Shown here: positions 8,534 to 52,951 of the stretch, piece by piece
Layout: the number at the start of each line of letters is the position of its first letter
How positions within the stretch are numbered: position 1 is the first letter of the stretch
IMG/VR virus record: IMGVR_UViG_3300027881_000018
Coordinates: 1-53,002 of that record
Origin: a virus
DNA length: 53,002 bases
Direction: 5' to 3' (one strand)
Translations under genes and position numbers: made by a program
Notes under the pieces: model-generated
Databases searched by the model: none
Told to the model about the DNA's origin: nothing
The model's input: the letters and a program-made list of their open reading frames with translations, nothing else

Positions 8534-11086
8534 TCACGGCACCGGGTTCACGTGTCCGGCCAGCGGTACGCTCAGGTCGAACACGCCATTCAGCGGCACC
8601 TTACGGACTATAGTTCCACGGAGGCCAACTGAAAAGGCAGTCGCCGTCGTCAGCGCGAACCTGTTGAACGCGACTCCTGACAGCGACTTCTCGCCGTCGT
8701 TCTCCGGGCGTATGGCGAGCCTCGCCAGAATTGAGCCCGCCGCAGTCTTGCCGGTCGCGTCCGTCGCCCGCAGGGCCAGCGCCGTCCGGGTCGCGCCGAT
8801 CTTTGAGAATGCCGTGTCCGTGGTGGATCGCAGCGCCAGAGATACCTTGGACGCGGCGCTGAACCCGACGCTCAGTGCGGTACTCGCTCGGGCAGCCAGC
8901 GAGGCCACCGCCGCAGAGTCAATGATCTTGCTCGCCGCGCTGACCGACCTGAGCTGGACACGAGCGAGCGCGATCTGCGTCGCCGTCTTGGCGCTCGCCG
9001 CAGTAGAGCGAAGCGCGAGGCCAGCGGTGATCGACGCGTTGAATACAGACGCGACGGCACCGACCAGCGTAGATCTGAGCGCCAGAGAGGCGGCTACCGC
9101 AGCATCGAATGTCTTTTGTGCAGCCGTAGTAGCGCGTGCAGCAAGCGAGCTGATGGCGACCCCGACCCCGATCTTGGCGCCTTCCGTACTTGAGCGAAGC
9201 GCGAGACTAATCGACGATACGGCGTCAAATGCCGCGCCAACTGCGCCCTCGATTACGCCGCGTACCGCTAGGCTCGCCGCTGATATGCCGTCCGCGATCT
9301 TGGCCGCCGCAGAGCTGGCCCGCAGCGCCGTGCTTGCGCTCGTGGCCGATGCCGCTGTCTTAGCCGCATCAGTACTCTCGCGTGTCGCCATGCTGACAGC
9401 CGCCGTGCCGTCTGCCGCCTTATCGGCTGCCGAGAGTAGTCGCAGGGCAAGCCGGAAGGTGCTGACGAAACCGTGAGCAGTGACGCCCTCGACAAAAGTG
9501 CGTATGGCAAGGCCAGCGGCGGCAATCTGATCTGCGGTCTTGGCGGCTACCGCACTGGCCCGACTGGCGAGACTGGCGACGGATACGCCTGCGCCGGCCT
9601 TAGCGTCGGCTGTCGTGGCGCGAACTGCAATGTTATCAAGAATGGCAGACGAGGCGACCTTGTCTGCGTCGGTCGTCGAACGCGCAGCGAGGCGAGCGAT
9701 TACCGCCGCGTTGAAGGCCCGAACGCCGTCGATCAGGGCCCGCAGGCTGACGCTGACCGCACCCACGGCCGCGACCGTCTTCTGGTCCGCGCCGAATGGT
9801 CTGAGGGCGATGCTTCCCTGACCTGCAGCTACGGCACTCTTGGCCGCGCCGTTGCTCGGTCGGGTTGCCATGCTCGACTGCCCGATCTCAACGACCGTCT
9901 TGGCTCCGGCATCGATGGCGCGCATGGCTAGGCTTGCCAGCATCACCGCGTCGAAGGTCTGCGCCGACGGCTCGCGTATGGCGACGAAGGTTCGCTCGCG
10001 GCATATCCTTTGGTCGGTGGTTGCGCCCTCCCAGAATATCGTGAGGTCTTCGGTCGAGCCCGTCGTGGTGACGCGTACACCCGCACGAGTAGAGATGTCC
10101 GCGCTGTCGAGTGAGTTCTCGTTCTCGTTGCCGCGCTCGCTGTCCGTGACCAGCGTCCCGGCGACGCGGTTGCTGTAGGTAGCCAAGCCCGCTGGCGCAG
10201 TAATGTCGCCCCAGAACTGCGAGGACGTGAAGATCGTGAGGTACGTGTCGACTCCGGGGTCGGTGATAAGCATGTCGTCGATCTGCTTGTCGGTCGTGGT
10301 GCTGTCGGAGTCGTCGGCGGTTGCGCTGGCCTCGAAGATGTCGGCGCCGTCAGTGGGGACGATGTTCAGGGTACGTTCGGCGACTACTATCGTGCTGGTG
10401 TTTCCCTCCTCGCGGAACTCGATCTCAACGTCTTGGCTGCCGTTCGGGTTGATCTCGCAGGCGAGGCCCATGAACCACATATCGTCGGCAGCAGAACTCT
10501 CGTGTTCGTTCGTTCGCACGGTATGGGCGATAGGGGTGCCGCCAACCGTCACGCGGAACTGAGCCCGCGCGCCTGCGGGCCCCTCGTTGGAGCAGCTGAA
10601 CGTCAGTATGTACGCGCCGCTTGCGGGATCGGGGATTGACATCCCGACGAGCAGTGACCACGTGGACGAACTCGTTGAGTCGGTAGCCGTCGCGCTCGCC
10701 TCGAGGTCGGTGCCGACAATAGGGAACAGGCACATCTCCCGGTTGATCGCGACGAGCGGCGAGGTCGTACTCGTCGTGTCGTGCCGGATCTCTACGTCCT
10801 GCGAGCCATTCGGGTTGACCATGCAGGTCAGCATGACCGTTAGCGTCGTGTCATCGACGCTGGTGTCCTCGTCGAATATCCGCTCCGAGTGGTCTATGAC
10901 GCTGCCACCGACATAGACCAAGAAGTGCGTCCTGCCAGATGCGCCGGTCCCTATCTGACACTGAACCGTGGCGTGCAGCAGGTACTCGCCGGACGCAGGG
11001 TCCGTCAGGATCATGCCGTTGATTAGCGTCGGCGACGTAGAGTCGAGCGTGTCGCTGGCGGTCGCTTGGGCCCGCAGAATGGTCAT
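8534..11086 (-). CDS. Second fibre-like protein: three beta domains plus 22 repeats of 20 residues
   Basis: An 850-residue protein in two parts. Residues 1 to about 380 contain three homologous beta-sandwich-like domains of about 120 residues, each with DP-x-x-x-x-Y at the start. Domains one and two also share NPNGSQDVEI. Residues about 384-827 are 22 units of the same 20-residue repeat as in the 1804-5058 protein, two of them of 22 residues. A 23-residue tail carries LNGVFD. The N-terminal domains are probably for virion attachment or receptor contact, and the repeat forms a shaft. Units 1-6 and 7-22 match units 1-6 and 34-50 of the larger protein, with unit 41 missing. Confidence 0.75.
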   Translation of the reverse strand: MTILRAQATASDTLDSTSPTLINGMILTDPASGEYLLHATVQCQIGTGASGRTHFLVYVGGSVIDHSERIFDEDTSVDDTTLTVMLTCMVNPNGSQDVEIRHDTTSTTSPLVAINREMCLFPIVGTDLEASATATDSTSSSTWSLLVGMSIPDPASGAYILTFSCSNEGPAGARAQFRVTVGGTPIAHTVRTNEHESSAADDMWFMGLACEINPNGSQDVEIEFREEGNTSTIVVAERTLNIVPTDGADIFEASATADDSDSTTTDKQIDDMLITDPGVDTYLTIFTSSQFWGDITAPAGLATYSNRVAGTLVTDSERGNENENSLDSADISTRAGVRVTTTGSTEDLTIFWEGATTDQRICRERTFVAIREPSAQTFDAVMLASLAMRAIDAGAKTVVEIGQSSMATRPSNGAAKSAVAAGQGSIALRPFGADQKTVAAVGAVSVSLRALIDGVRAFNAAVIARLAARSTTDADKVASSAILDNIAVRATTADAKAGAGVSVASLASRASAVAAKTADQIAAAGLAIRTFVEGVTAHGFVSTFRLALRLLSAADKAADGTAAVSMATRESTDAAKTAASATSASTALRASSAAAKIADGISAASLAVRGVIEGAVGAAFDAVSSISLALRSSTEGAKIGVGVAISSLAARATTAAQKTFDAAVAASLALRSTLVGAVASVFNASITAGLALRSTAASAKTATQIALARVQLRSVSAASKIIDSAAVASLAARASTALSVGFSAASKVSLALRSTTDTAFSKIGATRTALALRATDATGKTAAGSILARLAIRPENDGEKSLSGVAFNRFALTTATAFSVGLRGTIVRKVPLNGVFDLSVPLAGHVNPVP
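8606..9937 (-). repeat. In-frame 60-bp tandem repeat array, 22 units
   Basis: Same repeat family as 1933-4962. The unit keeps the hydrophobic-Ala-x-Arg core and Lys at position 13. Two units are 66 bp. The last 16 units match the last 17 units of the other array in order, so the two arrays descend from a common ancestor, not from independent expansion. Confidence 0.85.
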
Positions 11087-40027: not shown

Positions 40028-40350
40028 CAGGGCCTCTCAAGCGCAAGGATCTCAAGCTCTCGCATCCTGCCGTCCTTGTCCATCGGCGTCACGATGTCAA
40101 AGGTTCTCGCGCCAAGCGTGATCCTGTCGGCGGCCGTGAGCGTGTTGGCAAGGTTGGAGTACCGGATCTTGATGCGATGGCTGACCTCGGCCTTGACCTG
40201 CTGGCTCTCGAATCGCTCGCGCGCGCCAACGGCCTCAACGCTACCCCACGCCGTCATCAGCTCCGTGTACGTCAGGCCGCCCTCGCCGAATGTGTCAAGC
40301 GCGGTGCTGCGACGCTCCAGTGTTAGCAGATGTCGCTTAGTTCCGATCAT
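40027..40350 (-). CDS. Head-tail adaptor (SPP1 gp16-like)
   Basis: A 107-residue beta-barrel-like protein: MIGTKRHLLTLERRS, a TAWGSVEAVGARERFESQQ segment and a RYSNLANTLTAADRI segment, the pattern of phage head-tail stoppers. ATG 40350 overlaps the upstream gene by four bases. A longer in-frame start lies in that gene. Confidence 0.75.
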   Translation of the reverse strand: MIGTKRHLLTLERRSTALDTFGEGGLTYTELMTAWGSVEAVGARERFESQQVKAEVSHRIKIRYSNLANTLTAADRITLGARTFDIVTPMDKDGRMRELEILALERP

Positions 40351-41132
40351 GTCTCGAGTCCGTCTCGCAGGTGTCGCCACGCCTCGCCGTTCGCAAGCTC
40401 GTCGTGCGTCCACTGTCGATAGGCGAGATTGTACGCCCACTGCTCACGCTCACCCAAGTAGGGTGGATCTGAGACTTTGCGCGAGGTGACCGGCCACGCC
40501 ATCGAGCCTCGATTTATGGCGACCGTCGGCACGCCGAGACAGACCGACTCAAGCGCAGCCGTACTCGACCACGTGACGCACATCGCCGCGTCTCTGAGAG
40601 ATTGTGACAACGGGCCCATCTCGTCGGCCATCAGCGGGTGCGGTCGGTAGATGCTGTTCAGTTTCATGTCAGGCTCGGCGTCGTGCAGCGCAGCTACCCA
40701 CCACCTGCGATTACCGGGAGACACGGAGTCGCCGGGATGCTGGTCGCAGATCAGGATGTAGTTGCCGCCGGTTCTCCACGGCCGCAGCTTGACGCCGATG
40801 GCCTCCCACCTGTCTGGTGGACAGTCGAGCGGTCCCGGATCAGCGCAACCGTGCAGCCCGTTCCACCCGACTGACACGAACCGCAGGCGATCCTTGACGT
40901 AGTCGCCCGACCGTCCGTTGATGTATCCGGCCTCAAGAATCAGCCTCGGCTTGTCGCGCAGCTCTGCGGGAACCTTGTCTCCCCACCACGCGACGAAGTC
41001 GGCCTGCTCTGCGCTCGCTGTGCCGGGACTGATGTCGATGTGTACGCCGTGTCTTGCCAGACCGGAGCCGAGCGCGATCATTGCGTCGAGCTGATGCGCC
41101 GCGCGCGACTCGTAGTGCAGGAACGCTCTCAT
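40347..41132 (-). CDS. Glycosyltransferase-like protein, paralogue 1
   Basis: A 261-residue protein with GT-B-type C-terminal features: RPHP near the middle, then VTWSSTAALESVCLGVPTVA, a donor-site helix pattern as in capsule and CDP-glycerol-type transferases. The N-terminal half has DKPRLILEAGYING. It ends in a WAYNLAYRQWT-x-x-EL segment shared with its neighbour. The gene is paralogous to 41129-41917 and overlaps it by four bases. It lies between connector genes, an odd place for an enzyme. The acceptor (DNA, virion protein or host glycan) is unknown. Confidence 0.65.
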   Translation of the reverse strand: MRAFLHYESRAAHQLDAMIALGSGLARHGVHIDISPGTASAEQADFVAWWGDKVPAELRDKPRLILEAGYINGRSGDYVKDRLRFVSVGWNGLHGCADPGPLDCPPDRWEAIGVKLRPWRTGGNYILICDQHPGDSVSPGNRRWWVAALHDAEPDMKLNSIYRPHPLMADEMGPLSQSLRDAAMCVTWSSTAALESVCLGVPTVAINRGSMAWPVTSRKVSDPPYLGEREQWAYNLAYRQWTHDELANGEAWRHLRDGLET

Positions 41133-41917
41133 CCCAACCCTCTCTGAATGTGTGGCCACGCCGTGCCGTCGGCCAGCTCTTCCATAGTCCACTGTCGATA
41201 CGCGAGCCTGTTTGCCCACGTTGTTCGATCGCCGACGTATGGCTCATCCGAGAGCAGCGGTCTCGTTACTGGCGCAGCAATCGATCCGGGGCCAAGCGTA
41301 TAGGTAGGCACGCCCGCGATCACGGCCTCCACCGCTGCTGTCGAGCACCACGTGACAGCAAACAGTGCGTTGGACAGATCCTCTGCCAGTGTGCGCTCGT
41401 TTCGGTAGTAGCTTGGGTGAGGCCGCCTGTGAAACGTCCACTGACGTCGCTCGCACTCGCGCTTTATATCTCGACGGAACTTCCCGACGTCCGGCGCTGC
41501 CCTGTCTCCTACGTGCTGTTCCAGCAGCAGCACGTACTCGCCGGTCAGCTTCCAAGGCTTCAGCTCAACGCCGAACGCGTTCCACCGCTCGCCGCATATT
41601 TCTTTCGGCCATGCCCAGTCAGACAGTCCGTGCCGCTTATTCCACGACGCAGAGATGAAGCGCATTCGATTCTCATTGTAATTGTCGCCGCTGCCGTTGA
41701 TGTACCCGCACTCTAGGATCAGGTGCGGTACGCGAGAGTGCGGCACTTCCTTGTCGCCCCAAGTCACGACGAAGTCGTCGTCTGGACGAGGCGAGGCCGG
41801 GGCCGATTTTACCCTAGCCTCGATTCCGCACAGCCCCATGCCGTCTGCCAAGGCGCACATCGCGTCGCGCTGATGGTCGTAGTGCGGACCGCTCTTGGCT
41901 GCGAGCAGCGCCTTCAC
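41129..41917 (-). CDS. Glycosyltransferase-like protein, paralogue 2
   Basis: A 262-residue paralogue of the next gene, sharing PHLILECGYING, RRPHPSYYRNE, VTWCSTAAVEAVIAGVPTY and a WANRLAYRQWTMEEL end. GTG 41917 overlaps the upstream methyltransferase stop (GTGA). It has the same donor-site pattern as GT-B capsule transferases. Tandem duplication followed by divergence suggests that two sugars, or two acceptors, are handled. Confidence 0.65.
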   Translation of the reverse strand: MKALLAAKSGPHYDHQRDAMCALADGMGLCGIEARVKSAPASPRPDDDFVVTWGDKEVPHSRVPHLILECGYINGSGDNYNENRMRFISASWNKRHGLSDWAWPKEICGERWNAFGVELKPWKLTGEYVLLLEQHVGDRAAPDVGKFRRDIKRECERRQWTFHRRPHPSYYRNERTLAEDLSNALFAVTWCSTAAVEAVIAGVPTYTLGPGSIAAPVTRPLLSDEPYVGDRTTWANRLAYRQWTMEELADGTAWPHIQRGLG

Positions 41918-42507
41918 CGCCACGCTCGCCAAGTCTCCGAGACGTACTGCTTGTTGGTCATGCGCTCGACGGTCCACTCGGACAGCCACGCTCGGATCAG
42001 CTTGTCCCACTCGTCGTAGGGCCGCTTGTTCACGTGTAGCTGCGTCTTGGTCGTGGGGTCTATCGAGTCCTTGTTGTTCGCCGTCAGCGCGATGCAGTCG
42101 CGGGCGATCCGGCCCATCTGCGTTACGAGTAGCTGATCGTCGTCCGGCAGCAGGTGCTCGATCACGTCGAAGCTGGTTACCATCGAGTACGCCGCGTCCG
42201 GGCAGCGGTGCAGGTCGTGGACAAACATCAGGGATACGCCCTCGCGCTCGCACAGTCCGGGGACGACCTCGGCTCCGGAGGCGGTGTGGAAGCCGATCTC
42301 GGTCGCGTAGTCGAGCATTTCGCCGCGTCCGCAGCCGATGTCCAGATACGATCCTGCCCCTCGCTCTAAGGCCCAGACCAGATCCTCCCTCGCGTCGATC
42401 ATGCGCGTTGGCCCCATGGCGTAGTTGTACGTCTTCTGAACGTAGCAGTGAACGTACTTGGCACGCTCGAACTCGCGGGCCTCGGTGCTCGGTGCGCTCA
42501 GTTCCAT
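41914..42507 (-). CDS. Class I SAM methyltransferase
   Basis: A 197-residue protein with motif I SYLDIGCGRGEMLDYA near residues 53-68, an acidic motif II region (GAEVVPG), and motif IV-like SFDVIEHLLPDD near residues 113-124. It belongs to the UbiE/SAM-dependent type. It overlaps the connector gene upstream by ten bases and the glycosyltransferase-like gene by four, so the three enzymes are co-expressed. The methyl acceptor could be a sugar. Confidence 0.75.
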   Translation of the reverse strand: MELSAPSTEAREFERAKYVHCYVQKTYNYAMGPTRMIDAREDLVWALERGAGSYLDIGCGRGEMLDYATEIGFHTASGAEVVPGLCEREGVSLMFVHDLHRCPDAAYSMVTSFDVIEHLLPDDDQLLVTQMGRIARDCIALTANNKDSIDPTTKTQLHVNKRPYDEWDKLIRAWLSEWTVERMTNKQYVSETWRAWR

Positions 42508-43082
42508 ATCGGCAGCGTCCAGTTGGCGAGCATCATGGATGCCGCGCTTGCGATCGCCTCGCTCTCGGGATCTCCGGGCGCTCGCGCCTGCTCAAACTCC
42601 GCGAACTTCAGGAGTATGGCCTGCCGGACGGTCAGCGGAATGTTCGCCTGCGCCCAGCCGGCCTCAAGCGTGACCTGTGCCGCGCCCATGAAGTCGCCTG
42701 TGATCGGCCACGAGTCGTCGCGCTTCGGCCTGAGTCGCGGCGAGAAGTCGGTGTCGAGATCCGTCTCGTACGGCAGCGGCGAGCTGGTCCACGTTTGCAG
42801 AAACCCGTCGGCGTCGATGTACTTGACGCTCACGATGCTCGCGACCCGACCGAGCGGCAGCGCCCACGCGCCTGCCGGAAAGCCGTCTCGCGTAATCCTG
42901 TGCTCGCGAAGCACGATGGCCCTGCGGGTACTCTCGGTCGCCCACTCGAAGGCTCCTTGCAGGTAGCTTCGAAGAAGCTCGTCCTCCTCGTCGCCGGTAA
43001 TCTTGACGTGGGCCTTCGCCTCCTCAAGCGTTACCGGAAGCTGGCCGAGTTCGTCTGTGGTGATGATTCGCTCTCTGGTCAT
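42498..43082 (-). CDS. Head-tail connector (phiE125 gp8-like)
   Basis: A 194-residue protein: LPVTLEEAKAHVKITGDEED, LRSYLQGAFEWATESTRRAI, then a beta region and VRQAILLKFAEFEQAR, the standard order for HK97 gp6/phiE125 gp8 connectors that sit under the portal. It is overlapped by a DUF115-like gene upstream and a methyltransferase downstream. Confidence 0.8.
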   Translation of the reverse strand: MTRERIITTDELGQLPVTLEEAKAHVKITGDEEDELLRSYLQGAFEWATESTRRAIVLREHRITRDGFPAGAWALPLGRVASIVSVKYIDADGFLQTWTSSPLPYETDLDTDFSPRLRPKRDDSWPITGDFMGAAQVTLEAGWAQANIPLTVRQAILLKFAEFEQARAPGDPESEAIASAASMMLANWTLPIWN

Positions 43083-43747
43083 AGCACCTCTCTGATCTCT
43101 ATCTTGCGAAATGCGCTGATGCGCGACTGTGGACTACAGTTGATTATCTCCACGTGCGGCCAGCGGCCCGGCACCTGATTGTACTTGGCTGCCCACTGGT
43201 CGAACGGCGGCTCGCTGCTGAATCTAGGCTCTCGGTTGGGATGGCAGTTTCGCTTGTTGCCGCCGCAGTCGTAGCCGAGCAGGATGATCCGGGTCGCGCC
43301 GAGGGTAAGCGCAAGGCCTAGCGCCTGAAAGCCGCTGTGATCTCCGCTGACTACCGAGCCCGGTTCTCGCGGCATCGGTTCTCCGCGAGCCAGCATTGTG
43401 AGTGGAGTCGTCTCGACGTCCTTGACCTCCTCGCCGCTGATGCGCAGGCCGGTGAAGGCGGGATTGTAGAACTGCCACCAGCGAGCGTCGGCGGCGTACA
43501 GGATGTCGGCCCACGGTGCGGCCAGCGGCAGGTTGCGCCGCAGCCCAGCGTCGTTGATGGCGATGGCGCGCATTGTCATCGCGCCGTGCTTGCGATAGCT
43601 GTGAACCATCGTGAGCTGTTCTTCGGTCAGGCTCGGGCCAGTGCCGATGCACACGCAGGTGTTCTGATGCCAGTCAGGCCACTTGCTTGGTCTCACGCTC
43701 GCCTTTTTCTCTGATCCTGATGCCAACTCCGGCAGCGATAGCGCCAT
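43079..43747 (-). CDS. DUF115-like Rossmann protein
   Basis: A 222-residue protein with TCVCIGTGPSLTEEQL near residues 30-45 and SGDHSGFQALGLALTLG followed by IILLGYDCGG near residues 133-162. These are the markers of a DUF115-like group found in phage head gene clusters and in glycan-modifying loci. No enzymatic activity is established. In relatives it often accompanies glycosyltransferases, as here. It overlaps the upstream small gene by 74 bases and the connector by four. Confidence 0.65.
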   Translation of the reverse strand: MALSLPELASGSEKKASVRPSKWPDWHQNTCVCIGTGPSLTEEQLTMVHSYRKHGAMTMRAIAINDAGLRRNLPLAAPWADILYAADARWWQFYNPAFTGLRISGEEVKDVETTPLTMLARGEPMPREPGSVVSGDHSGFQALGLALTLGATRIILLGYDCGGNKRNCHPNREPRFSSEPPFDQWAAKYNQVPGRWPHVEIINCSPQSRISAFRKIEIREVL

Positions 43748-46072: not shown

Positions 46073-47366
46073 TGAGAGCAGTCGATCCTGTATCTTCGTC
46101 AGACTCGCCTTCCGCAGGCTCGTCGCCAGTTCCCTCATCTCCAGTGTCGTTCTCATCGATGTTACTCCCCATCTGAGGATTCGCGTAGGCGTCTCCGCCC
46201 GGATCGGTGCGCGGATTCATGCCTTCGCGAGCCCTGATCTCGTTCGGATTGATGGCCCCGACGCGGTGAAGCTTCTCGTAGCCATCGACCCTGCTCTTGA
46301 AGTCGGCGCGAACCGCTGCGTCCATGTCGAATCGTACCACCACGCCCTTGCGCCTGTCACTGACCGTTAACAGATCGCGCTCCATGGCCTGCTCGAACAG
46401 CTTCACGTACGGCAGCATAACGTCCTGACTGAACTCGACGCCCTGATGCTCGATGTTGCTGAAGGTGGCTCGCTCAAGGTCGGCCAGCTTGTGCGGCGGT
46501 ACTCCCCACACCGAAGCGATCTCGGTGCGCTGAAACTTGCGTGCTTCGAGTAGCTGCGCGTCCATCGGCTTGAAGGTCAGCTCCTTGGCCTCCATCCCCT
46601 CGGGCAGCATTCCGACGCCGCCGCGATCGCCGCCCTTGCCGTAGGTCTGCTCAAACGACTTGACCCACATGTCGTACTGCTCCTTGCTCGTGAACTTGCC
46701 GCCAGTCAGCAGCAGGGCCGGGATGGCGCCGTTGCCGTATAGCTCGGACAACAGTCGCTCGGCGGCCAGACACAGGCCGATTGCCTCTGTGGCCTCCTCG
46801 ACGGGTGAGTCGCCCTTGGAGCCGTCCACGCTGATGCCGCCGGTGATGTGCAGGATCTTGTTAGCCGTGAACTTGCGCTCGCCGGCCTTGAGCCGAACCG
46901 TGTAGATGGGATTCAGCGGATCGTCGTCGTTGATCGAAACGGTGTCGGGATGCACCGGCCTGAGAAACAGAATCGGCCCGGTCGCACCCTGCCCCTTGAT
47001 CGAGTAGTGGTTCCCCCACAGCGCAACGTGCGTCATGGCGCGCCTGAAGAACTGGGTCTGAGTCTGACGTCTGTTCGGCACTCGCAGCAGCCGCACTACG
47101 GAGTGGTTCGGCAGAGGCTCCAGCGTGACCTTGCCGTCGTCGTCCTTGATCTCCTTGAACACCGAGGGCGGGAACGATCCGATGGCGTTGGTCAGCGCTC
47201 GGACGATTGCGTGAACCGTGCTGCACCGCATGGCGTTCGCTGGCGTTACGTTCTCGCCCGACGCGGCAACGTTGGTGAGCATCAGCCGAATGATCTCGTC
47301 GAAGCTCCTGTCCTTCGACTGTATCGACGAGCCGCGGCCCCAAGTGGAAGGTCTGAGAATGTTCAT
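46062..47366 (-). CDS. Portal protein (HK97 gp3-like)
   Basis: A 434-residue portal: NAMRCSTVHAIVRALTNAIGSFP near residues 43-65, FFRRAMTHVALWGNHYSI, ILHITGGISVDGSKGDSPV, and QRTEIASVWGVPPHKLADLERATFSNIE, the signature of the family. The C-terminus is acidic (GDEGTGDEPAEGESDED). Overlaps the terminase stop by four bases. Confidence 0.9.
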   Translation of the reverse strand: MNILRPSTWGRGSSIQSKDRSFDEIIRLMLTNVAASGENVTPANAMRCSTVHAIVRALTNAIGSFPPSVFKEIKDDDGKVTLEPLPNHSVVRLLRVPNRRQTQTQFFRRAMTHVALWGNHYSIKGQGATGPILFLRPVHPDTVSINDDDPLNPIYTVRLKAGERKFTANKILHITGGISVDGSKGDSPVEEATEAIGLCLAAERLLSELYGNGAIPALLLTGGKFTSKEQYDMWVKSFEQTYGKGGDRGGVGMLPEGMEAKELTFKPMDAQLLEARKFQRTEIASVWGVPPHKLADLERATFSNIEHQGVEFSQDVMLPYVKLFEQAMERDLLTVSDRRKGVVVRFDMDAAVRADFKSRVDGYEKLHRVGAINPNEIRAREGMNPRTDPGGDAYANPQMGSNIDENDTGDEGTGDEPAEGESDEDTGSTALSAV

Positions 47367-49078
47367 ATCACACGGACGACTCCTTCACCCGGAAAGTATG
47401 TCGCCTCCTGCGCCCGGAGACGGTTCAGCGCCATGAGCAGGGCCACGACGCCGTCGATCTTTCTGTTCGCCGCGCCCTTGCGCGGGTAGATATTATCCTT
47501 CTGGTCGCGCTTCACCTCAACGTTAGAAACCATCCACGTCAGCACCGGGCAGTTGTGGTGAAACGTGCCGTCCTTGACGTACGCCTCAAGCCACTTCATC
47601 GGCTCGCTGAAGTTTAGCACCGTCGGCCGCACGTCGACGACGAGTATGCCCTGTTGTGCCATGTGGACGCCGTACTGAGTCGAGTTGTGCATCGGATCGA
47701 CCGCGAGCTCGACCAGATTAAATATGCCGCTGACCTCCGCGAGCGTGTCGGCCTCGATCTGGTCAACGTCGATGACGTTGCCCGGCGTGGTTCTCATGTG
47801 GCCCGCGCGCACCCAGCCGTCGTACTGCGCGTTTGGATCTTCCAGTACCGCCGTCTCTGGCAGCCAGTGGCGCATGAAGCAATAGATGTGCTGCTTGCCG
47901 TCGATCTCGCGCTCGAATAGCTGCGCCATCGAGTTCACGTCGATCTTTGACGCCAGATCCAGACCGCCGTAGGTGTCCTCGCCGAGGAAGTCTTCGAGCT
48001 TCAGGTGCGGGTCGTGGCACGCCTCCCACTTCCGCATGTCCATCCACGCCTCTGCGGCGTTGACCCAGACGTTCATCCGCTTGGTCAGGAAGGCGTTCAC
48101 CTGACTGACGACCTCCGTCGCCTTGCGGCACAGGTTCTCCATGTCCAGCGGGTACACGGAGACACCGAGATTGGGGTTGGACTTGATCCACACGTCGCGG
48201 TCGGTCCAGTCGTCGTCCTTGTCGAGCGTGTAGATCACGCCGAAGAACGAGTCGTCCTCGATCTGGCCCTCAAGGATTCTGACGAGGTAGGTGCGCAGCT
48301 CGTAGCAGATCCCGCTGGTGTCGCTGCCCGCCGTGGTGATGTTGAAGATCAAGGGCTGAAGCCGAGATCCGGTCGCCGTCTCGATGACGTTGTACACGTC
48401 GCGGTTCTTCCACGCGTGCAGCTCGTCGTTCAGCGCACAGTGGATGTTGTAGCCGTCAAGGGTCTCGCCCTGAGCGTGCAGCGCCTCGAACAGGGACGCC
48501 GTCTCCGGCTTGTTGATGTTATGCGCCCGTACCTCAAGGGGTAGCTCGGCGGTTCTTTTGGCCATCGCGTTGGCGATGCCGAACACGATCTTGGCCTGAT
48601 TGCGGGTAGTTGCGGCTGAGTACACCTCTGCCCCGGCCTCGCCGTCCTCCTCTAGCATGTACAGGCCGATGGCTGCCGCCAGCGTGGACTTGGCGTTCTT
48701 GCGGGCGACCTCCTCGTAGCAGGTTCTGAATCGTCTCGTGTTGGCGCGGATCGTCAGGGCGCCGTCCGCGTCGCGGATGTCTGCCGCGTGCAGCCAGCCG
48801 AAGATGTTGCAGACGCTGAACATCTGCCACGGTTGCAGCACGATCAGCTCGCGCCGCTTGGCCCACTCGCCCTTGATGTGGGGCAGCATCTCTATGAAGC
48901 TGCAGGCGCGCTCTGCCGCCGCCGCGTCGAAGTACCACGGCGCGTCCTCGCGCTCAAGGTCGCTCAGGAACCTGCGGCAGGATAGCCGGGTTAGGCGGCA
49001 CGTGGTTATCTGGCGCTCGCACACGTCCTCGGCGTACTTGATCGCCGCCGTAACGTGCCGATTCGGGTCGTGGCTCAC
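47363..49078 (-). CDS. Large terminase subunit
   Basis: A 571-residue Terminase_1/HK97 gp2-type protein. The ATPase has Q82-type PWQMF, a modified Walker A EVARKNAKST (residues 123-132) and Walker B IHCALNDE (212-219). The nuclease has YGGLDLASKIDVNSM and later Asp residues. It drives DNA into the prohead and cuts it. GTG start overlaps the small subunit stop (GTGA). Confidence 0.9.
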   Translation of the reverse strand: MSHDPNRHVTAAIKYAEDVCERQITTCRLTRLSCRRFLSDLEREDAPWYFDAAAAERACSFIEMLPHIKGEWAKRRELIVLQPWQMFSVCNIFGWLHAADIRDADGALTIRANTRRFRTCYEEVARKNAKSTLAAAIGLYMLEEDGEAGAEVYSAATTRNQAKIVFGIANAMAKRTAELPLEVRAHNINKPETASLFEALHAQGETLDGYNIHCALNDELHAWKNRDVYNVIETATGSRLQPLIFNITTAGSDTSGICYELRTYLVRILEGQIEDDSFFGVIYTLDKDDDWTDRDVWIKSNPNLGVSVYPLDMENLCRKATEVVSQVNAFLTKRMNVWVNAAEAWMDMRKWEACHDPHLKLEDFLGEDTYGGLDLASKIDVNSMAQLFEREIDGKQHIYCFMRHWLPETAVLEDPNAQYDGWVRAGHMRTTPGNVIDVDQIEADTLAEVSGIFNLVELAVDPMHNSTQYGVHMAQQGILVVDVRPTVLNFSEPMKWLEAYVKDGTFHHNCPVLTWMVSNVEVKRDQKDNIYPRKGAANRKIDGVVALLMALNRLRAQEATYFPGEGVVRVI

Positions 49079-49494
49079 TGTGACTGAACCCGCGTCCGCG
49101 AGCTGGGCGTCATGCCGAACTCGGTCAGTATGTCCATGCAGGTCCGCTGGGCCTTGTTTGCGATCGCCAAGAACGGGTTTTGGATCGGGTATCCCTTCGG
49201 GCTCTTCACGATCATGCCCATCTCGCGAACCTTGATGACTGAGTCTCGCCAGCGAACGAAGTTGACTGCGTATATCGAGAGGGCGTCGATGTCGTACTCG
49301 GTCATCACCCTCATGCGCGCCAGCTTCGCGGCGTTGTCGGTAAAGACGGCCGTCTCGTCTGGCTCAAGGTGACTCGGGGCATCGGGAATGGTGACGGGTA
49401 CGACCGGCTCGTCCGCATTCATCCGGTCTGGACGATCCGTGCCCCGTATTAGGCGCAGATTTCTTGGTGTCGGCTTCGGCCCTCGCTTACTCAT
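49075..49494 (-). CDS. Small terminase subunit (P27 family)
   Basis: A 139-residue protein with the P27 pattern: KRGPKPTPRNLRLIRGT at the N-terminus, PSHLEPDETAVFTDNAAKLARM, YDIDALSIYAVNFVRW and IQNPFLAIANKAQRT. It binds the packaging start. ATGAGTAA overlaps the glycosyltransferase stop by eight bases, tying packaging genes to the upstream cassette. Confidence 0.85.
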   Translation of the reverse strand: MSKRGPKPTPRNLRLIRGTDRPDRMNADEPVVPVTIPDAPSHLEPDETAVFTDNAAKLARMRVMTEYDIDALSIYAVNFVRWRDSVIKVREMGMIVKSPKGYPIQNPFLAIANKAQRTCMDILTEFGMTPSSRTRVQSQ

Positions 49495-50407
49495 CGCTCG
49501 CGTCTTCCTCGATCATCGCTCGCAGCGCCTTGCTCGCTGTCTCGCGCCCCTCTACGGTTCGCAGCACCATCTTGTACTTGTCGTTGCTCCTGATCTTATC
49601 CCAGTCGATGTCTGTCCGTCTCCTCAGGGGCGTGTCGAAGTGCTGCCAGTTCTTCTTGATCTCAAAGTGCGGCCTCTCGAATCTCCTGTCGACGCTCGCC
49701 ACCTGCGGCCACGCTCGCTCAAGCAGCCGCGCCCCGCGCAGCCTGCCGTCGCCGTCGTAGAGCTTGCCCATGCCGCCCGGCATCTTCATGGTCGGAACCT
49801 TCTGGCACAGAAAGGCGTTTAGCTGCACCGTACACCAGCCGTCTGACAGCACCTGCAGGCACATGTCCACGTCGTCGTTCTGCTCTAGCCGCCACCGCTG
49901 ACTCAGCTCATTCAACACCAGCGTGCAGGAGTACACGTGCGCGTTCAGCACGAACGGCGGCTGCGGTACGCCCGCGAAGTTGACGTAGTTCAGGCCAGCG
50001 ACGGCGACGTTCTCGTAGCGATCGCAAAAGTCCTCGCACGCGGCCAGCGCGATGCCTGCGCGGATCGGCAGCCGCTTCTGCCTGTGCATCCGACAGAGGT
50101 ACCGGATGTTGTCGTCGAGCTGCCAGTGCCGCTTGTCGCCTCGCGCTACAGAGTGATCCTTGATCCAGTTGCGGGCCGCCACCAGTCCCTTGTCTGACCA
50201 CGGCAGAACCAGCACCTCGGCTGCCGGGTATCGCTTCTCGTACTCCTCGGCCTGATGCGGCTCGGCCACGATGTAGTGCGGAACCTTGTCGCGCTCCAAG
50301 AACCTCAGCGTCGGCGCGGGTGCAGGCGGCAGGTGATCCCACCTCCGGTGCCGGATCTCGTAGCGGTCCTTGGACGGTACGTATATGGGGTAGCGCGGCT
50401 CGATCAT
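49487..50407 (-). CDS. TET-associated-type glycosyltransferase (DNA modification candidate)
   Basis: A 306-residue protein: RYPIYVPSKDRYE at the N-terminus, VPHYIVAEPHQAEEYE, VLVLPWSDKGLVAARNWIKD, and HWQLDDNI (residues 94-101) in place of a DxD metal/nucleotide site. Later come VYSCTLV, NDDVDMCLQVL, and RRFERPHFEI. This order matches the TAGT group of phage glycosyltransferases described with TET/JBP oxygenases, thought to add sugars to modified bases. No TET/JBP gene is visible here. It is coupled to the methyltransferase (ATGA) and the small terminase. Confidence 0.65.
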   Translation of the reverse strand: MIEPRYPIYVPSKDRYEIRHRRWDHLPPAPAPTLRFLERDKVPHYIVAEPHQAEEYEKRYPAAEVLVLPWSDKGLVAARNWIKDHSVARGDKRHWQLDDNIRYLCRMHRQKRLPIRAGIALAACEDFCDRYENVAVAGLNYVNFAGVPQPPFVLNAHVYSCTLVLNELSQRWRLEQNDDVDMCLQVLSDGWCTVQLNAFLCQKVPTMKMPGGMGKLYDGDGRLRGARLLERAWPQVASVDRRFERPHFEIKKNWQHFDTPLRRRTDIDWDKIRSNDKYKMVLRTVEGRETASKALRAMIEEDASDE

Positions 50408-51228
50408 GTCTGGCCGCCCCTTCTCTTGCGCCAGAACATCGGGCGGCTGTTCCACAGCGTCGTCTGCATCTTGTCGTAGCCGAGCTTTCGCAGCGCCTTG
50501 TTGAATAGCTTCGACGTCTGCCTTCCGCCGACTGTCCTGCCGAATATCTCGTAGTCCACGAAGTGCCCGGTGGACAGCGTGCCGAACGAGTTTGCGATCA
50601 GCAGGTACCGCGGCTGAAGGTACTCGATGACCTCGAACAGGTGGGAGATCGGCGCGAGAATATGCTCGAAGTACTCGCTGGCGAACACGAGGTCGGTCTG
50701 CCCCTCGGCGTCCATGACGGTCGCGGCCATCGAGAATCCGTAGCGGTCGCCCATCACTGTCGCGACGCTCATCTGCACCGTGCCGTCGAGGTTCGTGCCG
50801 ACGACCTCGGCCTCTGGAAATAGCTGCGCGAGCGCGGCGGTCGAGTGGCCGCAGCCGCAGCCGAGATCGACGACGCGCCGCACGTGGCCCATGCTGCCGA
50901 CGATGCCCGCTGGCGGCATTGACTTGTCCTGCTGGATCTCCGTCAGGTACTTGCGCGAGTAGATGATCCACGACGACCACAGGTCGCCGACGTACTCGTC
51001 GGTGTCGTACACGGCGTAGTCTGGCTCGGGCAGAGAGTCGTACCAGCGCCTCTCCAGATCGATCAGCTCCGGTGCGTTGTCCGGCTGCGTCACGCTGCCG
51101 TTCTTCCAGCGAACCGTGCTCCTGCAGATCTCTCCGATCTTCTCCTCGTCGATCTCGCGGAACGAGCCGAAGTCACTCAAGAATACCTGAAGCGTATCGC
51201 TCGGATTCTCTTGGAGGATTGTGTTCAT
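50404..51228 (-). CDS. Class I methyltransferase of modification cassette
   Basis: A 274-residue protein with motif I VVDLGCGCGHSTAALAQLFP (residues 119-138), motif II VVGTNLD, and FASEYFEHIL for the motif IV-like region. No PC motif of cytosine-C5 enzymes or DPPY-type motif of N-methylases is seen, so it is unlikely to be a plain DNA methylase. In its cassette it could methylate a base side chain or a sugar. Overlaps both neighbours by four bases. Confidence 0.7.
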   Translation of the reverse strand: MNTILQENPSDTLQVFLSDFGSFREIDEEKIGEICRSTVRWKNGSVTQPDNAPELIDLERRWYDSLPEPDYAVYDTDEYVGDLWSSWIIYSRKYLTEIQQDKSMPPAGIVGSMGHVRRVVDLGCGCGHSTAALAQLFPEAEVVGTNLDGTVQMSVATVMGDRYGFSMAATVMDAEGQTDLVFASEYFEHILAPISHLFEVIEYLQPRYLLIANSFGTLSTGHFVDYEIFGRTVGGRQTSKLFNKALRKLGYDKMQTTLWNSRPMFWRKRRGGQT

Positions 51229-51950
51229 TGATCTTCGCTGGTCGGATCCGCTTCCTCGAAGATAACCGAGGTGATGTCGTCGTCCTCTCGCTCCGGCCAC
51301 CACGACGACCAGACCCTCACCTTGTAGTGGGCCTTCTGTGCGGACGGAACTAGGTCGAGACCGGCCAGCCGCATGAAGTCGTTGGTCTTGCAGAACTCGA
51401 CGCGGTCCTCGTTGTTGTCGAATGAGACTATGACCTTCAGCCTGTTCTTCAGCGGCTCGTAGTCCGGCATCCCCAGCCACTCGGCGGCGGCGTCAGAGTC
51501 CTTGATCTCCGATGCCGGGCGGGTAATCATCACCAAGCTGGCGAGCATCACGTCGTCGAAGCCGGTTCCCTCAAGCCCCCACTCGTCGAACTCCTTGACC
51601 TCCTTCAGAAGCTCGGTGAGCTCGCGGTCGTCGATCTCGGCGAAGCGGGCCAGCTCGTTGTCTGCGGCGAGTAGCTTGAGCGCCTGCGGTGAGTCCGGGT
51701 CGAGGTCCATCCGGATCGCGCTGACCGAAGTCCAGCCGATGCTCTTCGCGGCCCTGACCACGCCGTGTCCGGCCAAGATGGTCGAGTCCTTGGCGATTAC
51801 CACGTTTCGGTACTGGCCGTGCTGAGTCAGGCTCTGGCCGATGTGCTCGACCTGATCGTCGGTATGCTTGCGGTAGTTGCGCGGGTGTTCGGTGAGCTTC
51901 GCAAGCGCCACCGACTCGGCTCCGTATGTTCTCTCGACTGCCGCCTCCAT
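51225..51950 (-). CDS. ParB-like protein with C-terminal extension
   Basis: A 241-residue protein. Residues 10-95 form a ParB-N-like domain (LTEHPRNYRKHTDDQVEHI, then ILAGHGVVRAAKSIG, with the G-H-x-x-R-A core). The C-terminal about 90 residues hold LKVIVSFDNNEDRVEF and end in a W-W-P segment. Phage ParB-like domains linked to methyltransferases and glycosyltransferases are known from base-modification loci, where they may recognise or process nucleotides as CTPase-type enzymes. ATG 51950 shares one base with the radical SAM stop. Confidence 0.7.
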   Translation of the reverse strand: MEAAVERTYGAESVALAKLTEHPRNYRKHTDDQVEHIGQSLTQHGQYRNVVIAKDSTILAGHGVVRAAKSIGWTSVSAIRMDLDPDSPQALKLLAADNELARFAEIDDRELTELLKEVKEFDEWGLEGTGFDDVMLASLVMITRPASEIKDSDAAAEWLGMPDYEPLKNRLKVIVSFDNNEDRVEFCKTNDFMRLAGLDLVPSAQKAHYKVRVWSSWWPEREDDDITSVIFEEADPTSEDQ

Positions 51951-52951
51951 TACTCGCACCTCATGCAGTGCCCGCAGACCGGGTGCTCGTGCCACTCGTT
52001 GGCGGCGTGCATCCGGCGCAGAGGCTCCATCTCCGACCACGCCTCCGCGAGCGTCATGCTCGCCACGTTGCCGAGCGCCAAGTCCTTGCTCGTCAGCTTG
52101 CAGCACGGCAGCATGACTCCCCTGTGATCGACGACGATCTGCTTGAACGGAAACTTGCAGCCCATGTCCGGGTCGCTGTAGTGAAACGTGAGCCCGGTCT
52201 CGACGTCCGGAACCTCGTTCATCTTCTGGAATGACACCACGTCCGCTAGGCCGACCCACTTCTCGGCGAACGCCTCGGCCTCGTGCTCGTTGAGCTGGTT
52301 CTTCAGAAAGCTGACCAGCACCAGCGGGAACTCGTAACCGGCCTCGTTGCGCTCTCGGATGAACGCCTCGACGTTGCCGACCACCCTGTCGAACCGGCCC
52401 GACGTTCGCTGACGATCGTACGTCTCTGCGGTCACCGCGTCGATGGAGCAGAACAGCTTGGTGAGGGTACTGCCCAGAAGTCTCTTGCGGCGCGGCGGCG
52501 TGAGCAGTAGCCCGTTGGTGACGAAGTAGATGTTGAGCATACCCCGCGCAGTCGCATACTCGATCAGCTCCTCGAGATCGCGCCGCATCAGGGGCTCGTT
52601 GATGTAATTCAGCTTGAGCGATCTGGCCCCGAGATCAACCGCCTGATCCACTAGGTTCTTGTAGACCCTGACCGGCATCGCGAGGTTCGGCCTCTGCTCG
52701 TAGCCGTGGAGGCAAAACGGACAGCTCATGTTGCAGCCGCCGTTCAGCTCCACGTCGAGCTGGATCGGGTGTGCCCAGAACTGTAGCCGCTCGCTCGCCT
52801 TGTACTTGGCGATGAACTCGGCCCACTGTCGCTCCTGAATCCACGGCGGGCAGCGGTTGAATGCGTCCCGGTTCCTGATGTCGAACCAGTTGTCCGTCTC
52901 GACGGCCTGCTCCGCTACCTGCGCCCTGTTCTGATTGGCTGCGTCAAACAT
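51950..52951 (-). CDS. Radical SAM/SPASM enzyme
   Basis: A 333-residue radical SAM protein: C73-N-M-S-C77-P-F-C80 (CxxxCxxC cluster motif) after VELNGG, a barrel with LKLNYINEPLMRRDLEEL and FVTNGLLL, and a C-terminal SPASM-type Cys set (MGC, PCCK, and a final CGHCMRC). It is the first gene of the four-gene cassette. It could functionalise a nucleobase or a protein side chain; the context of a ParB-like protein, methyltransferase and glycosyltransferase favours DNA. Its start lies 51 bases from the window end. Confidence 0.8.
   Translation of the reverse strand: MFDAANQNRAQVAEQAVETDNWFDIRNRDAFNRCPPWIQERQWAEFIAKYKASERLQFWAHPIQLDVELNGGCNMSCPFCLHGYEQRPNLAMPVRVYKNLVDQAVDLGARSLKLNYINEPLMRRDLEELIEYATARGMLNIYFVTNGLLLTPPRRKRLLGSTLTKLFCSIDAVTAETYDRQRTSGRFDRVVGNVEAFIRERNEAGYEFPLVLVSFLKNQLNEHEAEAFAEKWVGLADVVSFQKMNEVPDVETGLTFHYSDPDMGCKFPFKQIVVDHRGVMLPCCKLTSKDLALGNVASMTLAEAWSEMEPLRRMHAANEWHEHPVCGHCMRCE

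Follow-up and report, generated by a model that had tools for sequence, protein, structure and literature searches.

What do a radical S-adenosylmethionine (SAM) enzyme (rSAM), a ParB-like protein, a class I SAM methyltransferase (MT) and a glycosyltransferase (GT), encoded in overlapping genes beside the terminase genes, do for the phage that carries them? We addressed this question in IMG/VR virus record IMGVR_UViG_3300027881_000018, whose 53,002 bases (positions 1 to 53,002, here called the window) contain such a cluster. An initial annotation, made from the sequence alone, had described a DNA base-modification cassette in which the rSAM might build the base adduct itself. The explanation that we favour, to which we give slightly better than an even chance, is a widespread phage glycosylation cassette, in which a ParB-like protein bearing its own C-terminal domain and a TAGT-family GT would attach a sugar to bases in the DNA of the phage itself, whereupon or before which the rSAM and the MT would tailor that sugar.

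Four genes linked across phage contigs

In the window, the genes follow one another on the minus strand in the order rSAM, ParB-like, MT, GT, TerS, TerL and portal (Table 1), and all four cassette open reading frames (ORFs) are open and lie on that strand. The rSAM and ParB-like genes overlap by 1 base (TAATG), the ParB-like and MT genes and the MT and GT genes by 4 bases each, and the GT and TerS genes by 8 bases; these overlaps, as well as the gene identities given in the initial annotation, agree with the ORF coordinates and with Pfam and PHROG matches.

We then surveyed rSAM loci by scanning IMG/VR with the window rSAM and with an rSAM alignment, which yielded about 75 loci. Here and below, locus sets comprise the best 80 per scan with near-copies included unless stated, ORF calling at the loci followed a simple longest-ORF rule, and the contigs are fragments. 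After dereplication at 90% identity, 33 viral rSAMs share 37% identity or more with that of the window; a TAGT gene was found within three genes of 28 of them, and a ParB-like gene within the same distance of 26. Several of the loci without one or the other are cut by contig ends. Among the 12 viral and 18 cellular rSAMs below 37% identity, not one had a TAGT or ParB gene nearby. The cassettes occur in the orders ParB-GT-rSAM, ParB-rSAM-GT and rSAM-ParB-GT, and loci found through MT homologues show a similar picture, 66/74 having TAGT and 62/74 having ParB within three genes. Direct gene fusions were also observed, joining ParB to TAGT (454 amino acids (aa), locus L047), MT to ParB (511 aa, L036) and TAGT to MT (L108), with further ORFs containing TAGT and MT at L212, L240 and L242. 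Across these neighbourhoods rSAM, ParB, MT and TAGT recur together, the rSAM being optional, and this recurrent linkage and the fusions support the earlier claim of one functional cassette. Many unrelated contigs repeat the arrangement with the gene order permuted, which chance would not produce; a chance assembly or annotation artefact was ruled out by the overlaps, the coding score and the conservation.

Some loci vary the theme. On phage contig L144, two TAGT and two ParB-like genes flank an rSAM whose frame contains an internal TAG and is divided into two ORFs, and at L333, L334 and L340 a ParB-domain/TAGT pair has an rSAM three genes upstream, with an 829-aa ORF between.

Table 1 Features of the cassette and of other genes in the window.
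Feature	Positions	Strand	Remarks
rSAM gene, short SPASM (Twitch-type)	51950-52951	minus	333 aa; Pfam Radical_SAM 4.6e-12, SPASM 3.6e-9
ParB-like gene	51225-51950	minus	241 aa; best PHROG ParB-like match 3.9e-28
ParB-like C-terminal domain, EWxGMPEF...KSxWYP	51225-51482	minus	aa ~157-241 of the window protein; TAGT linkage, fusions
Class I SAM MT gene	50404-51228	minus	Pfam Methyltransf_25 4.2e-6
TAGT GT gene	49487-50407	minus	306 aa; Pfam TAGT (PF20691) 9.9e-40
Terminase small subunit, TerS (context)	49075-49494	minus	Pfam Terminase_4 (PF05119) 2.7e-20
Terminase large subunit, TerL (context)	47363-49078	minus	Pfam TerL_nuclease 3.1e-41
Sialyltransferase-like	43079-43747		phrog_4603 3.1e-29
Second class I MT	41914-42507		among head-tail genes
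Apparent paralogue of the DUF6716 GT-like gene	41129-41950		no Pfam match
DUF6716 putative GT	40347-41138		among head-tail genes
HNH endonuclease	328-744	minus	left contig end, directed out of the contig

A ParB-like protein and a TAGT form the core

The C-terminal extension previously noted on the ParB-like protein proved to be a real conserved domain of ~64 residues (alignment A4), and an IMG/VR scan for it returned at least 484 loci. In the best 77 of these that could be read, TAGT lies within three genes in 76, while at the one exception the contig ends within the locus. A stand-alone ORF of this domain adjoins TAGT at L069, L071, L074, L079 and L245, and the domain is joined to the TAGT N-terminus at L250 and L261, both of which also carry rSAM and MT. 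When cultured phages were searched, one version of the domain gave 0 matches and another version gave 18 records, all of them among the 24 records with TAGT, and those inspected encode the domain and TAGT as a single coding sequence. The ParB-like protein with its C-terminal domain, together with TAGT, is the core of the cassette, and the domain common to ParB and TAGT provides a search handle for such systems.

Profile searches confirmed the TAGT, Radical_SAM and SPASM assignments, and the assignment of the fourth family followed another route, as Pfam ParB_N matched the window protein below its cut-off (0.0014; 19.1 bits against 26.3) and PHROG families supplied the ParB-like identity (ParB-CTPase fold). 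Box II of the window protein reads GHGVV, and other members have GHGRV in the alignment. The Box II arginine is required for NTP binding in ParB (PMC12704722), and the window protein, by this alignment, lacks that mark of an NTP-switching ParB. The GT was correctly read as TAGT-type, matching PF20691 over the full profile (1-205/205; 137.1 bits against a cut-off of 27.5), with its LDDN site present as HWQLDDNI and a match to PHROG 842 (beta-glucosyl-HMC-alpha-glucosyltransferase) at 2.6e-38. A sequence search of the PDB with the TAGT gave no match, and the protein is predicted to be a GT-A DNA glycosyltransferase. TAGTs that occur alone have been pointed out as potential novel transferases (PMC13216743).

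DNA is probably the target of the cassette, because the TAGT family has a precedent in DNA glycosylation, because its partner is ParB-like, and because phage enzymes that modify DNA bases repeatedly have ParBc proteins as neighbours (PMC12783734). The TAGTs of T2 and T6, which belong to the same family by full-length profile match, act on glucosylated 5-hydroxymethylcytosine (5hmC) DNA (PMC13216743), extending the glucose on 5hmC that derives from dCMP hydroxymethylase (PMC13216743, PMC13390438); in contrast, the window lacks dCMP hydroxymethylase and has a ParB-like partner with its dedicated C-terminal domain. Recruitment of the transferase to DNA is the predicted role of the ParB-like part, and the attached sugar might hide the DNA from host nucleases. 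If the cassette does act on DNA, it would point to a large reservoir of sugar-modified bases with the potential to stop restriction and CRISPR nucleases.

Known handle-making enzymes are absent

In described phage DNA glycosylation, the sugar is placed onto a hydroxylated pyrimidine, premade by a separate enzyme. Profile searches of the window contig detected none of the enzymes PF12851 (Tet_JBP), PF00303 (thymidylate-synthase (TS)-type hydroxymethylase) and PF00145 (C5-methylase), as the initial annotation had stated. Its further premise that TAGTs usually accompany TET/JBP oxygenases does not hold for TAGTs of this kind, as Tet_JBP occurs in 1/50 records of our first set (L024). In that set, C5-methylase was found in 4/50 records and a TS-type enzyme in 1/50. 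Tet_JBP was found in 0/46 rSAM records, in a run in which the controls were silent too and for which sensitivity was checked separately, and C5-methylase in the rSAM set was limited to a Maricaulis metagenome-assembled genome (MAG) and one match below cut-off. Positive-control records for these profiles were detected (P12024L, henriette 12B8, L024 and L057), although profile searches may overlook divergent oxygenases. Thymidine hypermodification of the M6/ViI type is not indicated, in that the TS-type 5-hydroxymethyl-dUMP synthase (PF00303) is absent; the kinase and amino-acid transferase of that pathway were not searched by name.

Two known kinds of base-modification locus are instructive here. 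Nonlabens phage P12024L likewise places a TAGT in a short base-modification operon (TET/JBP, TAGT, DNA methyltransferase), but the window has neither TET/JBP nor C5-methylase and carries ParB-like, rSAM and small-molecule-type MT genes instead. The CmoX/CmoY carboxymethylcytosine loci are also phage DNA-modification loci, often with a ParBc protein; their handle, however, is a carboxymethyl group that is amidated, and TAGT and rSAM are not mentioned for them (PMC12783734).

Proteins of Aeromonas phages Aeh1 (NP_943971.1) and 65 (YP_004300965.1) combine the same ParB C-terminal domain and TAGT in one polypeptide, as do fusions in Vibrio phages 1.124.O (AUR89558.1) and 1.076.O (AUR85517.1), but, unlike in the window, no ParB core, MT or rSAM was seen alongside these fusions. 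The two Vibrio genomes, ~47 kb each and labelled partial, have no Tet_JBP and no thymidylate synthase. TS-family genes are present once each in Aeromonas phages 65 and phiAS5, and in Aeh1 as one full-length gene and one fragment below cut-off. T4 genes 42 and 56 are both missing from Aeh1 and 65 (PMC2993671), and the Aeh1 glycosyltransferase is listed, after Iyer et al. 2013, as presumed modifier of an unknown base (PMC8056088); this old puzzle of a T4-like Aeromonas phage now becomes directly testable.

These records bear on the possibility of ordinary hydroxymethyl-pyrimidine glycosylation, with the handle gene outside the sequenced part, encoded by the host or too divergent to recognise. 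The contig is a linear fragment with the cassette at its end, virus records are often incomplete, one related record (L024) does carry Tet_JBP, and precursor synthesis varies between phages. Nevertheless, many contigs of 30-130 kb carry ParB-TAGT and none of the three handle-maker families, the Vibrio and Aeromonas phages show domain-TAGT fusions in genomes devoid of Tet_JBP and TS in the first pair (partial genomes) and of T4 gene 42 in the second (PMC2993671), and the HNH gene at the left end of the window suggests that little is missing between its ends. We regard this possibility as quite improbable.

A bolder proposal, tentative and on balance unlikely, is that the acceptor of ParB-TAGT is a normal base that receives the sugar directly, on an exocyclic amine for instance, without any hydroxymethyl handle, and that the rSAM and MT make an unusual oxidised, deoxy or methylated sugar. 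New chemistry at the sugar-attachment step is a realistic prospect, and direct base glycosylation, if true, would be a new route to a DNA-sugar linkage, common to a very large set of uncultured phages and to cultured ones such as Aeh1.

The radical SAM enzyme is an optional module

The rSAM contains the cluster motif C73-x3-C77-x2-C80 and auxiliary-cluster cysteines at 265, 283 (284), 326 and 329, of which C73, C77, C80, C265, C283, C326 and C329 are invariant in 53 rSAM sequences, a pattern corresponding to a Twitch or short-SPASM enzyme with one auxiliary cluster. A profile search of the PDB placed BtrN first (5e-20), followed by MoaA and BlsE. BtrN, a sugar-alcohol-type dehydrogenase (aminocyclitol alcohol dehydrogenation), likewise has one auxiliary cluster, with the same C-x17-C ... 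C-x2-C spacing as the window rSAM, but differs in being only ~18% identical to it, with a weak fold match, at a template-modelling score (TM) of ~0.5 over the model. The AlphaFold2 (AF2) model (pLDDT, its per-residue confidence score, 91.3) resembles SuiB, DesII, BtrN, EpeE and BlsE at TM 0.5-0.6, and this modelled fold does not on its own decide between sugar and peptide chemistry.

The neighbourhoods of rSAM relatives point to sugars. Among distant relatives in cells and viruses, a nucleotide-sugar gene lies within three genes in 21/32 loci, and we infer on this basis that the rSAM substrate is a sugar. The rSAM relatives of Helicobacter (L178) and of an archaeal MAG (L159) have a glucose-1-phosphate cytidylyltransferase (TIGR02623, above cut-off) directly upstream, and in Pelagibacteraceae and Prochlorococcus a related nucleotidyltransferase below the TIGR02623 cut-off occupies the upstream position; these cellular relatives directly downstream of a glucose-1-phosphate cytidylyltransferase-type gene (L178, L159, L167, L174-L176 and L179) appear to be an uncharacterised sugar rSAM family. 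At L008, a cytidylyltransferase gene follows the rSAM. As further observations, cellular rSAM relatives include L163, L165 and L166, of which L163 and L165 lie beside ABC exporters and GT2 genes, and virus L145 encodes several consecutive SPASM-type proteins.

The rSAM is an optional module of the cassette. In a tree of 112 TAGTs, rSAM accompanies 29 and is missing from 46, the rest being undecidable, and 10 changes are needed to explain its distribution; well-supported branches force at least 8 of them, and the close relatives of the window GT include some with and some without rSAM. Cassettes of ParB-TAGT that are free of rSAM can carry other sugar enzymes: an epimerase resembling dTDP-glucose dehydratase (L018), a nucleotide-sugar dehydrogenase (L011), an RmlD-like reductase (L044), a further NAD-epimerase (L060) or an FkbM methyltransferase (L062). 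Since such cassettes can contain sugar enzymes, and since rSAM relatives reside in nucleotide-sugar clusters, we read the rSAM and the MT as likely sugar tailors; the rSAM would oxidise, epimerise or deoxygenate the sugar, either as a nucleotide-sugar or after transfer. The picture suggested is a common machine of ParB-domain and TAGT, lacking a handle-maker and equipped with interchangeable sugar-tailoring genes that include the rSAM. Between ParB and TAGT, L060 (7073-8011), L037 and L066 encode a family of ~312 aa with no match in Pfam or NCBIfam, possibly another sugar enzyme.

In the earlier proposal, the rSAM modifies the DNA base, making the handle or the whole adduct, after which TAGT glycosylates and the MT methylates. 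Its attraction is that the window and nearly all rSAM-bearing phage records have no TET/JBP, C5-methylase or TS-type hydroxymethylase, and that the rSAM is tightly linked to TAGT; moreover, thymidine hypermodification is known to include radical SAM isomerases whose substrates are amino-acid adducts of 5-hydroxymethyldeoxyuridine. However, rSAM is missing from most ParB-TAGT(-MT) cassettes, which are just as devoid of those enzymes, showing that TAGT is independent of the rSAM, and the repeated changes on the TAGT tree, the rSAM relatives in sugar pathways and a Twitch architecture that fits BtrN, not known base-modifying rSAMs, also speak against it. A base-building rSAM is therefore not supported, and we consider it improbable.

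The methyltransferase resembles small-molecule enzymes

By aligning the MT family (alignment A3), we found conserved SEYFEH and WNxRP motifs; the catalytic motif IV of DNA methyltransferases ([DNS]PP[YFW] or PC) is absent from the alignment, with SEYFEH in its place. The nearest folds to the AF2 model (pLDDT 92.6) are small-molecule MTs, and on these two grounds a DNA methyltransferase was rejected. The protein is predicted from sequence and model to be a small-molecule or sugar methyltransferase, and in the cassette it would methylate the sugar. A tblastn search of cultured phages with the MT gave no match. At L051-L053, a protein that does read like a DNA N4/N6-methyltransferase (ICDLPYG; 8897-9661) directly follows ParB-TAGT.

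Terminase genes and a possible virion-protein target

Coupling to packaging genes, which had been taken to suggest late modification, is real for one class of loci: of 30 rSAM cassettes followed by 4 kb or more of downstream sequence (near-copies included), 28 lie within six genes of a terminase, counting verified terminase clusters, one of whose three types has no Pfam match. Among loci found by TAGT, the figure is only 19/46; the coupling is not general for ParB-TAGT, and it was rejected for this reason as general evidence of late timing.

Several observations weigh against DNA glycosylation with sugar tailoring as we propose it. The hydroxyl-bearing base precursor is unaccounted for, the rSAM fold is at least as similar to the peptide-modifying SuiB and EpeE as to sugar enzymes, and the rSAM-bearing members are all uncultured, with three weak rSAM matches in cultured phages, of which the annotated one lies outside such a cassette. 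In addition, a second cluster of sugar enzymes (40347-43747) lies by the head-tail genes of the window, making glycosylation of a virion protein conceivable.

The cassette might accordingly glycosylate a capsid, portal or tail protein, with the ParB-like and terminase neighbours being incidental. Packaging and head genes adjoin it, no base handle-maker is recognised, and a sialyltransferase-like gene, a DUF6716 GT-like gene and a second MT lie between the head and tail genes of the window. Against this, TAGT family members glycosylate DNA in T-even phages (PMC13216743), the pairing or fusion of TAGT with ParB-like proteins is near-obligate, ParBc recurs with DNA base-modification enzymes (PMC12783734), and many cassettes are situated away from terminase genes, such that we hold a virion-protein target to be distinctly unlikely. 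The second cluster itself is possibly devoted to virion glycosylation or to a second step of the same pathway; a search for relatives of its sialyltransferase-like protein found L262 only.

Ends of the contig

The contig has no end repeats, and the cassette lies at its right end, the rSAM starting 51 bases from the contig end, so that the upstream flank of the cassette falls outside the contig. At L002, an HNH-like ORF, read by eye and with no Pfam match, is located between rSAM and TerS. Because of this ORF and the HNH gene at the left end of the window, the two contig ends may be close together in the phage genome; if they abut, the HNH gene would sit just upstream of the rSAM.

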